In this document: positions 3,342-12,924 of the stretch, in pieces | How positions within the stretch are numbered: position 1 is the first letter of the stretch | Layout of the letters: each line of letters begins with the position of its first letter | IMG/VR virus record: IMGVR_UViG_3300049727_000084 | Span: 1 to 20,944 of that record | Length of the DNA stretch: 20,944 nt | Source of the DNA: a virus | Reading direction: 5' to 3' (one strand) | The notes under the pieces: generated by a model | Databases searched by the model: none | Told to the model about the DNA's origin: nothing | What the model saw: only the letters and a program-made list of their open reading frames with translations | Program-made: the position numbers and the translations under genes

Positions 3342-3648
3342 CTATGAAAGTTACCAAATCAAAATCATCTAATTTATCAAAAGTAGTTTCTGCGTCATTT
3401 TCCTGGAATTTATCTCCATCAATTTTATATTTGGAAAATAACCAAACTTCTTCTGATTTAATTTTCTCATCAAATACTGTAAATTGTAATTCCATTTCAA
3501 ACGCTGTAAATGTGATATCAACACGTTGTTCTGATCTGAAATAATAAACTTCCACTTTATAATCCTCATTATCAAAATAATCATGAAGCTTATTTCTAAC
3601 TAATCCAACGATTCTGTTTATTCTTTCTAAATCTTTAATTGTAAGCAT
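3328..3648 (-). CDS. Acidic hypothetical protein, first gene of leftward operon
   Basis: A 106-residue protein with about 26 Asp/Glu against about 15 Lys/Arg. The N-terminal part (MLTIKDLERINRIVGLVRNK) looks helical. The centre alternates hydrophobic and polar residues like a beta-sheet (KVEVYYF, VDITFTAF, MELQFTVF), and the tail is very acidic (DKLDDFDLVTFIGDKD). AAAGGT precedes the ATG. It is the promoter-proximal gene of the operon and 2 nt from the next. No family is recognised. Strong acidity and leading position behind a strong promoter recall small phage counter-defence or DNA-mimic proteins, but that is only a guess. Confidence 0.65.
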   Translation of the reverse strand: MLTIKDLERINRIVGLVRNKLHDYFDNEDYKVEVYYFRSEQRVDITFTAFEMELQFTVFDEKIKSEEVWLFSKYKIDGDKFQENDAETTFDKLDDFDLVTFIGDKD

Positions 3649-3678
3649 TTGTATTACCTTTATGTGTTTATGATGATT

Positions 3679-3707
3679 GTTATAGACCAGTATTACACTA
3701 ATGTCAA
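3679..3707 (-). promoter_or_regulatory. Near-consensus sigma70-type promoter of leftward operon
   Basis: On the minus strand TTGACA (3707-3702) and TATAAC (3684-3679) are separated by exactly 17 nt, one base from full consensus. The start point would be near 3672, shortly before the AAAGGT ribosome site of the 3648-3328 gene. An imperfect palindrome, AGTATTACACT (3689-3699), lies in the spacer and could be an operator. Confidence 0.8.
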
Positions 3708-3831
3708 TATCTATTTATAAATAATAAATATTATTTCAACCATTAAATTAATTCTTTACAACTAAAAAGAAATATATTATCAACAGATCACCTATTGCAG
3801 GTAGAAAAACAATTAATATATAGGATAATAT

Positions 3832-4119
3832 ATGCAAAAAGAGAATAATTATTATAATGTACTCAATGATTTAGCTGATTTAGTACAAGATCATATCATG
3901 CAATTACGTCAAGCGTTCAATCAGCCAATATCGCCAATAACATCAAGTGCGATAGATGAGGCTTATACTCAGTACATGTCTTATGCAAACCAGGAAAGAG
4001 AAGAACAATTTGAATCATCAAATGATAGTGATGAAGCTTATAGCTTTTATGAAGCATATAATCATAGAGATAATGCACAAAATAAAAAATCTAAAGAAAA
4101 ACAGATTGAATTAGCATAA
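3832..4119 (+). CDS. Hypothetical acidic protein, 95 aa
   Basis: An unrecognised, soluble protein with a helical N-terminal half (LNDLADLVQDHIMQLRQAF) and an acidic, Ser/Tyr/Glu-rich second half ending KKSKEKQIELA. AGGA lies 7 nt before the ATG. It is the first of the rightward small genes and is transcribed divergently from the leftward operon, from the 183-nt region 3649-3831. No rightward promoter there is good enough to call. Confidence 0.6.
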   Translation: MQKENNYYNVLNDLADLVQDHIMQLRQAFNQPISPITSSAIDEAYTQYMSYANQEREEQFESSNDSDEAYSFYEAYNHRDNAQNKKSKEKQIELA

Positions 4120-10015: not shown

Positions 10016-10888
10016 ATGACTATTGATTATAACGCAAGCCCAGAAGAATTTGAAAGAATACTGAACAATCAGGGACAAGAAGAGCCAATTGTTGAAGAAA
10101 CGCCAGTTGAAGCAATAGAAGAACAACCAGAAGAAATACAGGCAGAAGCAGTGGAAGAAGAGTCTGTTGAAGAGCCAGCGCCTGAAGTTGAAAGCTATAA
10201 GGTGCCTAAAGAAAGATTAGATGCGGAATCAGCTAAACGTTATGCTGCAGAAGAGCAAATTAAACAACAGCATATATTGATTGAAAAGCTCATGGCGGAA
10301 ATAAATCAACCAAAGCCACAACAGCAACAGCAACAGCAAGAGCCTGAGCTCAATGTGTTGGATGAAGATGCTCATCGTTATTATATCAATGAGATAAAAC
10401 AATTAAACCAAAAGATGGAGCAAACTATCGCTCAACAAAAACAACAAGCTGAGCAAGCTCAGTTAGAAAATGCTATTAAACATTCTACAAATGAATTTAA
10501 AGCAAAAGCTCCTGATTATCAAAACGTATTAGAAAAGTATATCGCATTTAAAACAGAAGAAGCTCAGGCAACATTCGGAGAAAATGACCATGCAATTGAT
10601 TTCGTTGATAAACAACTTGAACAACTATCTAAAAATGCTTTGGCTCAGGGTAAAAACCCAGCTGAAATCTTATATAACCTTGCTAAGAAAACCGTAGCTC
10701 CAACAGCCATGAAAGCTACCAGCAAAGTCACGCCTAATTTGTCTGCATTGAATACTAATATGGGTAAGTCCAGAACTGCTGGCAGTAATAACTCTGCAAG
10801 TACATTAGCCGCACCTAAGATTGATTATACTGCAAGTGCTCAGGATTTTGAAAAACAGGTTGCACATTTAAGGTCTAGAGAGATATAA
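10016..10888 (+). CDS. Scaffolding protein
   Basis: A 290-residue, Glu/Gln-rich, mostly helical protein between portal and major capsid, which is the position and composition of a phage head scaffold. An acidic first 60 residues (EEPIVEETPVEAIEEQPEEI) leads to a Gln-rich coiled coil at about 75-150, including a run of seven Gln, then a helical domain and a Ser/Thr/Ala linker. The N-terminal IDYNASPEEFERIL (3-16) is echoed near the C-terminus by IDYTASAQDFEKQV (269-282). Scaffolds bind coat through a C-terminal helix-turn-helix, and the basic AHLRSREI end fits that. TTAGGAG precedes the start. The neighbouring coat gene is 900 nt away, not adjacent as is normal. Confidence 0.8.
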   Translation: MTIDYNASPEEFERILNNQGQEEPIVEETPVEAIEEQPEEIQAEAVEEESVEEPAPEVESYKVPKERLDAESAKRYAAEEQIKQQHILIEKLMAEINQPKPQQQQQQQEPELNVLDEDAHRYYINEIKQLNQKMEQTIAQQKQQAEQAQLENAIKHSTNEFKAKAPDYQNVLEKYIAFKTEEAQATFGENDHAIDFVDKQLEQLSKNALAQGKNPAEILYNLAKKTVAPTAMKATSKVTPNLSALNTNMGKSRTAGSNNSASTLAAPKIDYTASAQDFEKQVAHLRSREI

Positions 10889-10970
10889 TAATCTTAACAT
10901 CATTAGTGATGTGGCTTCCTCGAGCTAGTTGGTTCTCCCTCCTAGCTCAGGAAACGGCAATGTAAGATTA
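10889..10970. other. Cloverleaf-like inverted-repeat element after scaffold gene
   Basis: The 82 nt directly following the scaffold stop can fold into a compact three-way junction. The outer stem is TAATCTTA/TAAGATTA (10889-10896 with 10963-10970). Hairpin one is ACATCA-TTAG-TGATGT (10897-10912). Hairpin two is TTCCT-GAGCTAG against CTAGCTC-AGGAA (10916-10953, twelve pairs, one bulged C, 13-nt loop). The outer stem is followed by TTTTCATCTC, so it may end the packaging transcript. The last residues and stop of the opposite-strand endonuclease gene lie inside hairpin two. A mobile-element boundary or functional RNA is also possible. Confidence 0.6.
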
Positions 10971-11293
10971 TTTTCATCTCTTCTCACCTTCCATTCATAT
11001 ATCCATTCACTTGATGGTCTACGATTCTGGCTTTGCATTTGTCTGGTTACAAATCTGCAATTATCTGGAGAATATCCCTTATAATTGTTTATCCTATCTA
11101 ATGTAAGCTCTGGGGAATAACCATTACGCTTTGCCCATATCTTAAAGTTCAAATAGTTATCCCATTCATCGCACCATGTTATATTACGGTCATAATACAC
11201 ACGTCTTGTTTTAGGATGTTGGCTCATACATCTTTGTCTAAATGCTGACCATCTTTGCCATAAGTTTGTTTTACTATCACCATGTATACGCAT
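10925..11293 (-). CDS. HNH-like (LDRIDN-type) putative homing endonuclease
   Basis: A 122-residue protein of a small phage family recognised by its order of motifs: LWQRWSAFRQRC (11-22), a Tyr-rich segment, ITWCDEWDNYLNFKIWAKRN (38-57), LTLDRINNYKGYSPDNCRFV (63-82) and QSQNRR (87-92). This is the LDRIDN...PDNCRW..Q..NRR pattern often annotated as HNH-like and found as free-standing mobile genes in phage structural regions. The classical His-His pair is absent and an Asp stands in its place, so nuclease activity is not assured. It runs opposite to the head genes and sits alone between scaffold and capsid genes, as intron-less homing genes do. The ribosome site is weak. Its 3' end is embedded in the inverted-repeat element. 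Confidence 0.75.
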   Translation of the reverse strand: MRIHGDSKTNLWQRWSAFRQRCMSQHPKTRRVYYDRNITWCDEWDNYLNFKIWAKRNGYSPELTLDRINNYKGYSPDNCRFVTRQMQSQNRRPSSEWIYEWKVRRDENNLTLPFPELGGRTN

Positions 11294-11321
11294 AATTAAC
11301 TATTTCTTAAGTTACTTCATG

Positions 11322-11350
11322 GGAATAGCATAAAATCTAGGATTAGTCAA
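11322..11350 (-). promoter_or_regulatory. Candidate promoter of endonuclease gene
   Basis: On the minus strand TTGACT (11350-11345) stands 17 nt from TATTCC (11327-11322). The -35 is good and the -10 poor. The predicted start point, about 20 nt before the ATG at 11293, would give the gene its own leftward transcription. Confidence 0.4.
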
Positions 11351-11414
11351 CTTAGTATCAATGTATATTATATTGGAGCTAAAAATTAGTACCCTGGGTT
11401 TTTCCTATCTTCCC

Positions 11415-11450
11415 ATTTACCTATTTACCTATTTACCTATTTACCTATTT
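11415..11450. repeat. Tandem repeat of ATTTACCT, about 4.5 copies
   Basis: Four perfect head-to-tail copies of ATTTACCT are followed by a partial ATTT. Short iterated AT-rich units next to palindromes can be protein-binding iterons, or simply slippage products. Confidence 0.85.
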
Positions 11451-11456
11451 TGGCAC

Positions 11457-11505
11457 AGACGAACAAAAACAAATCGTGACGAATTCGTCTAGGCGATTCG
11501 CCTCT
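11457..11505. repeat. Cluster of palindromes
   Basis: The 12-bp perfect palindrome GACGAATTCGTC (11478-11489) is followed at once by AGGCGA-T-TCGCCT (11491-11503). An upstream AGACGAA (11458-11464) is also complementary to TTCGTCT at 11484-11490, so alternative pairings exist. These GC-rich symmetric blocks stand out in AT-rich DNA and could be regulator sites, a cruciform or the edge of an inserted segment. Confidence 0.7.
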
Positions 11506-11531
11506 GTAATCTACTTACCCGATTAACTACA

Positions 11532-11560
11532 TTGACATCAAATTAATTCTCATTTAAAAT
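11532..11560 (+). promoter_or_regulatory. Strong promoter for capsid gene
   Basis: TTGACA (11532-11537, full consensus) is followed 17 nt later by TAAAAT (11555-11560, five of six). Start would be near 11567, giving the capsid gene a leader of about 230 nt. A dedicated promoter fits the far larger number of coat than packaging proteins needed per virion. Confidence 0.75.
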
Positions 11561-11563
11561 TAA

Positions 11564-11577
11564 ATTAATGCATTAAT
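11564..11577. promoter_or_regulatory. 14-bp perfect palindrome at the start point, possible operator
   Basis: ATTAATGCATTAAT is perfectly self-complementary and covers the predicted +1 of the capsid promoter. That placement is typical of a repressor operator. Being AT-rich it could also arise by chance, and no matching copy was noticed elsewhere in the window. Confidence 0.5.
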
Positions 11578-11579
11578 GA

Positions 11580-11687
11580 TCTTCTTCCCGACGACATAGG
11601 GAAATATTCCGTGAGTTTGAAGAGCTGAAGCAGGAAACGCCCGAAGACTACGACAAGGTCTTTTCTCTCGTGCATAAGGCGCAATAA
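11580..11687 (+). pseudogene. Start-less coding remnant of atypical composition
   Basis: After an in-frame TGA the frame reads SSSRRHREIFREFEELKQET, then PEDYDKVFSLVHKAQ and TAA: 35 sense codons with no ATG, GTG or TTG at its head. It has the look of a protein C-terminus, with amphipathic helix spacing and many charged residues. Over half of its third codon positions are G or C, against roughly a third or less in nearby genes. It is best seen as the 3' end of a foreign or former gene left in the capsid leader. Chance cannot be excluded at this length. Confidence 0.4.
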
Positions 11688-11734
11688 GTATTTTTATTTA
11701 TACAGGGACGGCGATACAGTCCTCTAAATTGCGC
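11679..11734 (+). promoter_or_regulatory. Hairpin-rich capsid leader
   Basis: GCGCAAT (11679-11685) pairs with ATTGCGC (11728-11734). Within it lie GTAT/ATAC (11688-11703) and a GGGAC/GTCCT hairpin (about 11705-11722). This could stabilise or control the capsid mRNA. No T-run follows, so it is not an intrinsic terminator. Confidence 0.45.
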
Positions 11735-11796
11735 GATCTATAAATATAAAATTCTTTAATAATTTTTCATTAATTTAATTTTATTAGAGGTTTTGT

Positions 11797-12924
11797 ATGT
11801 CAAATACAACTTTTAGTACAAATTCCCCATCCACGGTTAAACTGTGGAGTACGAAAATGTACTACGACATTGTCACAGATAAGTATTTATTTGGACAAAT
11901 GATTGGCGACGGCGTTGCCACAAAAGAAGAAGACACCCAAAGACAAGCAGGTGATAGAATAACAATTAGCTGGTTAGAAAGACTTTCTAACATCGGTTTA
12001 ATTGGTAATCAGGTAGCTACAGGTAATGAGCAAAACCTGAACTATTTCACTGACCAAATCTTTATCAATCAATTAAGAAACCCTGTTGAAATTCCTGGTT
12101 TATATACCATTGATTATCAACGTGTTAACTATGATTTAAACGCTGATACATACAGAGTTTTATCTGATTGGCATAAACAAAGAATGATTGTTGCAGCATT
12201 CAACCAGCTTTGCGGTAATACTTCAACAGCAATCACATATGATGGACAAGTATATACTGGTAGTAACTTGCCAGCGATTTTAGGTTTAAACCCTGCGATT
12301 GCTCCAAGTACAGCTGGTGGGGTTCAACGTATTTACTATGCAAACCCATCATCAAACACAACTGACCAAGCAGTAGGAGCTGACCCATCAGCTACTATGA
12401 GACTTGATTATATCCTTGATATGGAAGTCATAGCTGAAACACAACGTCCATATATTAGACCTATAAGTGAATTTGGAATGATTAAATATCATTTCTATTG
12501 CCATACAGAAGTCTATAACCAACTTTTACAAGATGCTTCAAGTTCTAACCAATATAGAGAGTTAAACTTGGCTCGTGTAACCGCTGGTAAATCAGATGGC
12601 GAAATAATGGATAGCTTTGTTTGGTCTAGAACGAAGATAATCAAATCTGACAAATTACCTCAGGGTGTGAACTCAGTTACTAGCCTTTCAGTGCCAAATA
12701 CACGTAGAGGCGCTTTTTGTGGTCGTGAGGCATTAGGCTTCGCATTAGGCAGGGGGTATAGCGAAGGCGGTGAAACCGTTGCTGGTTTTGTAATTTCACG
12801 CGATTTCTTCGATATCGGTCAACAACAACGTATTGCCATGTCAGGCATCTACGGTATGAAAAAAGTACTCTATAACGGCATCGACCACGGTGTTATCGTT
12901 ATGGTTACTTATTCATCTATATAA
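11797..12924 (+). CDS. Major capsid protein, N4-gp56 family
   Basis: The 375-residue coat protein. The opening segment with KLWSTKMYYDIVTDKYLFGQ (15-34), MIGDG and the GDRITISWLERLSNIGLIGN stretch (52-71) is the standard start of N4-gp56-type major capsid proteins with the HK97 fold. The central IRPISEFGMIKYHFYCHTEV and the later RRGAFCGREALGFALGRGYS also match. Length is usual for the family. AGAGG is 6 nt before the ATG. It is separated from its scaffold by the endonuclease island and probably has its own promoter. The gene is well conserved in appearance and not interrupted. Confidence 0.93.
   Translation: MSNTTFSTNSPSTVKLWSTKMYYDIVTDKYLFGQMIGDGVATKEEDTQRQAGDRITISWLERLSNIGLIGNQVATGNEQNLNYFTDQIFINQLRNPVEIPGLYTIDYQRVNYDLNADTYRVLSDWHKQRMIVAAFNQLCGNTSTAITYDGQVYTGSNLPAILGLNPAIAPSTAGGVQRIYYANPSSNTTDQAVGADPSATMRLDYILDMEVIAETQRPYIRPISEFGMIKYHFYCHTEVYNQLLQDASSSNQYRELNLARVTAGKSDGEIMDSFVWSRTKIIKSDKLPQGVNSVTSLSVPNTRRGAFCGREALGFALGRGYSEGGETVAGFVISRDFFDIGQQQRIAMSGIYGMKKVLYNGIDHGVIVMVTYSSI

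Follow-up and report, generated by a model that had tools for sequence, protein, structure and literature searches.

An HNH gene cassette next to a native coat promoter, and a conserved-loop hairpin in the coat leaders of Phage_capsid_3 phages

The window, that is, the whole stretch of DNA that was analyzed, is a 20.9-kb virus record in which the genes for the terminase, a P22-type portal, the scaffold and the coat follow each other in this order. The original prediction was that a 900-bp island separates scaffold and coat genes that are normally adjacent. The separation is confirmed, because the scaffold frame ends at position 10888 and the coat ATG begins at 11797 (Table 1). The adjacency is found in P22 and Sf6, where the scaffold adjoins the coat with no leader between them, but it is not the norm for the coat family of the window, in which the gap, where the scaffold could be mapped, usually spans 92-440 nt and is longer when cargo is present. 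The only close relative in our collection, and the only close one with an empty site, is the locus L001; its identity to the window is 82% for the coat, 65% for the portal and terminase, and 38% for the scaffold, which was alignable with five relatives. Four-fold degenerate sites are 36-50% identical between the window and L001, i.e., they are saturated. The higher similarity of the coat compared to that of its neighbors could suggest that the coat gene was exchanged by recombination; this was rejected because the four-fold sites are equally saturated, and strong purifying selection explains the difference.

Table 1. Features of the scaffold-coat region (window positions, unless a locus is named)
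Feature	Position	Strand	Remarks
Scaffold gene, 290 aa	10016-10888	+	stop TAA 10886-10888
Stable three-way-junction fold	10887-10972	-	overlaps scaffold stop and HNH 3' end
Inserted block, ~637 bp	10889-11525		absent from L001
HNH endonuclease-like gene, 122 aa	10925-11293	-	antisense
Tandem repeat TTTACCTA, 8-mer	11400-11450		6.4 copies
GC-rich palindromes GACGAATTCGTC and AGGCGATTCGCCT	11478-11489 and 11491-11503
Coat promoter TTGACA-N17-TAAAAT	11532-11560	+	native; 11/12 matches
Coat mRNA leader	11561-11796	+	native; collinear with L001
Leader hairpin 1, UUCCC-GACGACAUA-GGGAA	11585-11603	+
Leader hairpin 2, GAAGAC-UACGACAAG-GUCUUU	11643-11663	+	pairing probability 0.83-0.95
Leader hairpin 3, GGGAC-GGCGAUACA-GUCCU	11705-11723	+	core identical in L001; pairing probability 0.55-0.94
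Coat gene, Phage_capsid_3	11797-12924	+	Pfam PF13252, E 2.2e-27; PHROG 334
CsrA-family gene, Burkholderia phage DC1	L313 2078-2272		directly between scaffold and coat
CsrA-family gene, Pseudomonas phage Itty13	L312 2020-2205		directly between scaffold and coat

The first part of the island contains an antisense gene that matches HNH profiles over residues 1-97 (PHROG 374, E 2.7e-25; PHROG 3377, E 2.4e-24). Such a gene had been described as being of the LDRIDN type; the frame and the family assignment stand, but the motif actually reads LDRINN. The frame is matched by 547 phage records and stops about 30 aa past the HNH domain, whereas relatives are longer, at 154, 220 and 320 aa, with additional sequence. 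The cloverleaf-like element that had been noticed at the left edge folds as a three-way junction, and no other 86-nt stretch of the window folds as stably; its z-scores are -7.3 for the minus strand and -5.2 for the plus strand. It is possibly a transcript end or a barrier between the converging genes; no canonical terminator was called in 10887-10972. Several identities were rejected for this element: there is no tRNA call anywhere in the window, there is no match to Rfam 15 at the gathering score over the whole window, and a search for relatives by DNA pattern returned seven chance matches inside coding-like sequence. A group I intron was likewise rejected, with no intron-family match up to E 5 in 10700-11900. 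Both the tandem and the palindromic repeats are present as described. The two palindromes are 1 bp apart, and paired palindromes within 20 bp were found in 16 of 2000 shuffles. They lie within the insert, 29-54 bp before the -35 element of the coat promoter, and may constitute an operator pair.

Comparison with L001 separates the island into two parts of different origin. In L001, the scaffold stop is followed by 1 nt, the promoter TTGACA-N17-TATTAT, the leader and the coat ATG, and the distance from the -35 element to the ATG is 258 nt, compared to 265 nt in the window. The alignment of the two sequences is unbroken from window position 11526 up to the coat gene. The global alignment score of the promoter part is 7.0, compared to -10.8 (sd 3.6) in dinucleotide shuffles; that of the last 97 nt of the leader is 24.0, compared to -9.9 (sd 3.9); and the middle part of the leader aligns more weakly, with 2 of 300 shuffles scoring as well. 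Since four-fold sites are saturated at this divergence, the unchanged GGACGGCGATACAGTC and other conserved stretches of the leader indicate selection. Conversely, for 10889-11525 we detected no homology in the L001 gap or scaffold 3' end, or in the gap of a more distant locus, L194, and the HNH gene, the three-way-junction fold and the repeats are all missing from L001. A near-exact empty site is thus present in L001, although the exact left edge of the insert is not fixable because the scaffold 3' ends have diverged. It should be noted that the leaders of L194-L199 are too diverged to be aligned with that of the window.

The original prediction would have been contradicted if the non-coding part of the island had turned out to be native, and this is the case for 11526-11796, found in L001, but not for 10889-11525, which was not found there. 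The coat promoter, which had been described as private, is strong but native, as it is also present in L001. There, without any insert, this strong promoter is followed by a collinear leader and lies at much the same distance from the ATG; therefore, coat expression did not need rebuilding, and the suggestion that the phage had to re-create it was not supported. By this alignment, the insert is younger than the promoter and the leader. The cassette 10889-11525 would comprise a minimal antisense HNH gene, its own 5' region and, at its 3' end, the stable RNA fold; it would lie between the scaffold stop and a coat promoter that was already there, leaving both neighbors intact.

The proposal that this junction is an accretion site was upheld: in addition to the absence of the insert from L001, two other phages carry different HNH genes at this junction, and further ones carry other cargo there. 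Specifically, HNH_3 genes, which belong to a family different from that of the window gene, are present in Paracoccus phage KLEP18-1 (antisense) and Rhizobium phage RHph_Y1_10 (sense). In L194, which lacks an HNH gene and has a coat of 49% identity, a canonical terminator and a tandem repeat, CTAAGTATAAG, that differs from that of the window follow the scaffold within the gap, in 3389-4000. In the leaders of L194, L195 and L197-L199, CGTG-N5-CACG hairpins occur in series, with GTAAA after them, and may represent another loop class. Cargo upstream of the coat, e.g., SLOG-family (YAcAr) and glycosyl hydrolase 16 genes, was observed in L098, L152 and L156, and in L098 and L152 it sits between scaffold and coat. 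Three small antisense ORFs occupy this place (L233 6180-7324) in the cultured Ochrobactrum phage POI1126. In L193, the genes upstream of the coat are antisense and tail-like, and the order is rearranged compared to other relatives.

The native part of the island contains three hairpins with the loop core RCGAYA, at -212, -154 and -92 from the coat ATG. The L001 leader has hairpins at -205, -149 and -93, in which the stems differ from those of the window while the loop core is the same. Three hairpins with this core were found in the window leader, a number reached in 1 of 2000 shuffles (mean 0.1), and three in the L001 leader, reached in 0 of 2000; the core had been defined from these same two leaders. 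Strict plus-strand matches number three in the entire 20.9-kb window, and all of them are within the coat leader. In free-energy folding of the whole leader, the probability is ~0.1 for hairpin 1 of the window and 0 for the third hairpin of L001, suggesting that folds compete. The hairpins were also considered as DNA operators, which was rejected because the arms are not conserved and only the asymmetric loop is. A 15-mer of hairpin 3 was of no use as a handle for searching IMG/VR, as it gave 81 matches, by estimate near the chance number.

For the family-wide analysis, the loop k-mers CGTCA, CGTTA and CGATA stood out in 88 non-redundant leaders and were captured in the core RCG[UA]YA. We define the hairpin as this loop core carried by a stem of 5 bp or more, and count it in the 250 nt that precede the coat. 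The discovery set contained 51 such hairpins, i.e., 23.2 per 10 kb compared to ~1 elsewhere, distributed over 41 of the 88 leaders and with none antisense. When the definition was relaxed slightly, 43 of 88 leaders were positive, compared to 1.2 of 88 in dinucleotide shuffles; that scan counted nested hairpins repeatedly, and the per-locus counts alone were used. The core was generalized after inspection of the discovery leaders, and the clean test is that of the hold-out alone, 27 further leaders screened to remove similarity to the discovery set: the hairpin was found in 10 of them, at 19.3 per 10 kb and again with none antisense. The enrichment before the coat is approximately twentyfold over the background in the discovery and hold-out sets, where the loci are related to one another and the hairpin counts are not independent events. 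The hairpin as defined is absent from 64 of the 115 leaders.

Choosing sequences by pairing is circular, and a core-anchored control was run for this reason: the flanks pair in 37% of the leader cores compared to 4.9% elsewhere, and in 37% compared to 3.6% in the hold-out. Among 720 permuted cores the true core ranks first, and the next ranks are mostly overlapping versions of it. All five stem pairs vary on both sides, with 98.3% of cells paired in these sequences preselected for pairing. The three window hairpins are the best matches of a covariance model in the window, but they belonged to its training set, and the E-values of the model over several genomes are weak. A smaller rise in density, at -1000 to -1500, reflects the scaffold leaders, of which 6 of 50 have the hairpin. 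The hairpin type was also noted upstream of the scaffold in L229 (5012-5029), L114, L130, L131, L157 and L158. Individual complete or long genome records differ: RHph_Y1_10 has one strict match, in the coat leader; Microcystis phage Mae-JY35 has six, one before the scaffold and one before the coat; in KLEP18-1, PBC5 and POI1126, strict matches occur only elsewhere. The hairpin has no match in Rfam, and a literature search for a capsid-leader RNA motif returned nothing matching. The RCG[UA]YA leader hairpin, conserved before coat genes across Phage_capsid_3 phages, is apparently undescribed.

These results bear on the alternative origins of the island. The coding remnant that had been proposed downstream of the promoter did not survive: a 35-codon open frame is reached in 705 of 1000 shuffles, the L001 leader has no such frame, and the peptide has no homologue in the loci examined or in phage records. 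The supposed remnant is better read as a structured coat-mRNA leader. Nevertheless, the peptide ranks 4th of 532 C-termini on a scaffold-tail profile on which the real tail ranks 14th, and REI is common to both edges (AGAGAGATA at 10877 and AGGGAAATA at 11599), as expected if an insertion split the scaffold 3' end, such that the ORF now ends in ...LRSREI and the tail REIFREFEELKQETPEDYDKVFSLVHKAQ, at ~11597-11687, is spliced back or lost. The profile score is just 2.9 bits (E 4.5), the promoter and hairpins between and within the pieces are collinear with L001, the L001 scaffold is complete without such a tail, and there is no match to a group I or other intron at a relaxed threshold; consequently, we consider such a split very improbable. 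We give hardly any credence to the view that the whole 900 bp is one accretion between formerly adjacent genes, with the promoter re-created later and a coding remnant left behind. It agrees with the adjacency in P22 and Sf6 and with the HNH gene and repeats that are present here and missing from L001, but it is contradicted by the promoter and collinear leader of the insert-free L001, by the noncoding gap of 92-440 nt that is normal in relatives, and by the chance length of the remnant frame.

As to the insert itself, the HNH gene could be a resident nuclease with a phage function, e.g., in packaging or recombination, given that its ORF is intact and that HK97-type HNH nucleases work with terminase (PMC10448857). 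This appears improbable because few members have the gene, the junction holds different HNH families in either orientation, and the window gene is antisense to the structural genes and missing in L001. An intergenic insertion with an empty-site relative, a feature of free-standing homing endonucleases, is found here through L001. By analogy with such endonucleases, the small HNH nuclease gene is probably a homing gene, and the cassette most likely arrived by nuclease-driven gene conversion. Overall, we regard as probable the combined reading of an inserted HNH cassette beside a native coat promoter and a hairpin-bearing regulatory leader.

The leader hairpins have a defined sequence, position, strand bias and pairing, and they are replicated in the hold-out; a function at the RNA level, a protein partner and an effect on the coat level can be predicted from these features. 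With their variable paired stem and the loop core RCG[UA]YA, located before the coat and sometimes the scaffold of Phage_capsid_3 phages, they are most likely candidate sites for a phage or host RNA-binding protein that would set the amount of coat. CsrA-family genes (PF02599) are located between scaffold and coat in DC1 and Itty13 (E 8e-10 and 5.8e-7, respectively), and the DC1 coat leader includes a GGCGC-AGGAG-GUGCC hairpin, a possible CsrA target. An AGGAG hairpin is of the kind that CsrA binds. The presence of both the CsrA gene and the AGGAG hairpin at the coat makes it plausible that the coat leader is a point of post-transcriptional control in the wider group. The corresponding gene of phage JC1, between scaffold and coat, was called a moron by the authors who described JC1 (PMC9144972).

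We are evenly divided on the full proposal that the RCG[UA]YA hairpin is a new RNA element through which a putative RNA-binding protein controls the coat, and sometimes the scaffold, while a sister lineage uses a phage CsrA at this place. It is unlikely, although by no means negligible, that the hairpins are transcription signals that act on RNA polymerase by pausing or antitermination, and not translational control. Their location 25-193 nt before the ATG, clear of the ribosome site, the series of up to three copies, and the presence before some scaffold genes are consistent with transcription signals, whereas the CsrA-type translational regulator found here in distant relatives favors RNA-protein control.

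Tailed phages need the right ratio of coat to scaffold, and post-transcriptional means of achieving it are known for few phages. A strand-specific hairpin with a conserved loop before coat genes, in genomes of 35-70% G+C, provides a testable handle and a bait for the protein; the leader is the more interesting part of the locus, compared to the nuclease insertion. The latter adds one more example of a familiar process; what makes it useful is that the insertion fits between a stop codon and a promoter, leaving both intact.

The closest described arrangement is that of T4 segD, a free-standing endonuclease gene that lies antisense between genes 23 (major capsid) and 24 and is flanked by terminators (PMC2988022). 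Both segD and the window gene are intergenic antisense nuclease genes that adjoin the major capsid gene, and structures that end transcripts surround segD. The differences are that segD encodes a GIY-YIG enzyme and the window gene an HNH enzyme, and that the window gene lies between scaffold and coat, without a canonical terminator call. The T4 mob genes and other homing endonuclease genes near essential genes (PMC10448857) are likewise intergenic, of the HNH type, sporadic and adjacent to essential structural genes; the 122-aa window ORF, whose activity and target are putative, appears to lack the extra DNA-binding domains of its relatives. For the leader, one comparison is the CsrA system of Bcep22-like phages, in which the scaffold and coat genes of DC1 and JC1 flank the gene for an RNA-binding regulator. 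The window loops are without GGA and no csrA was found nearby, whereas the DC1 and Itty13 leaders are without RCG[UA]YA hairpins. Another is T4 gp43, a precedent for a phage protein that recognizes a leader hairpin via its loop (PMC3014915). Unlike the gp43 operator, the window hairpins have the RCG[UA]YA core, occur in coat leaders in up to three copies, lie off the ribosome site and have a putative partner; as in the T4/RB69 gp43 operator, a small hairpin upstream of a start codon combines a conserved loop with a variable lower stem.
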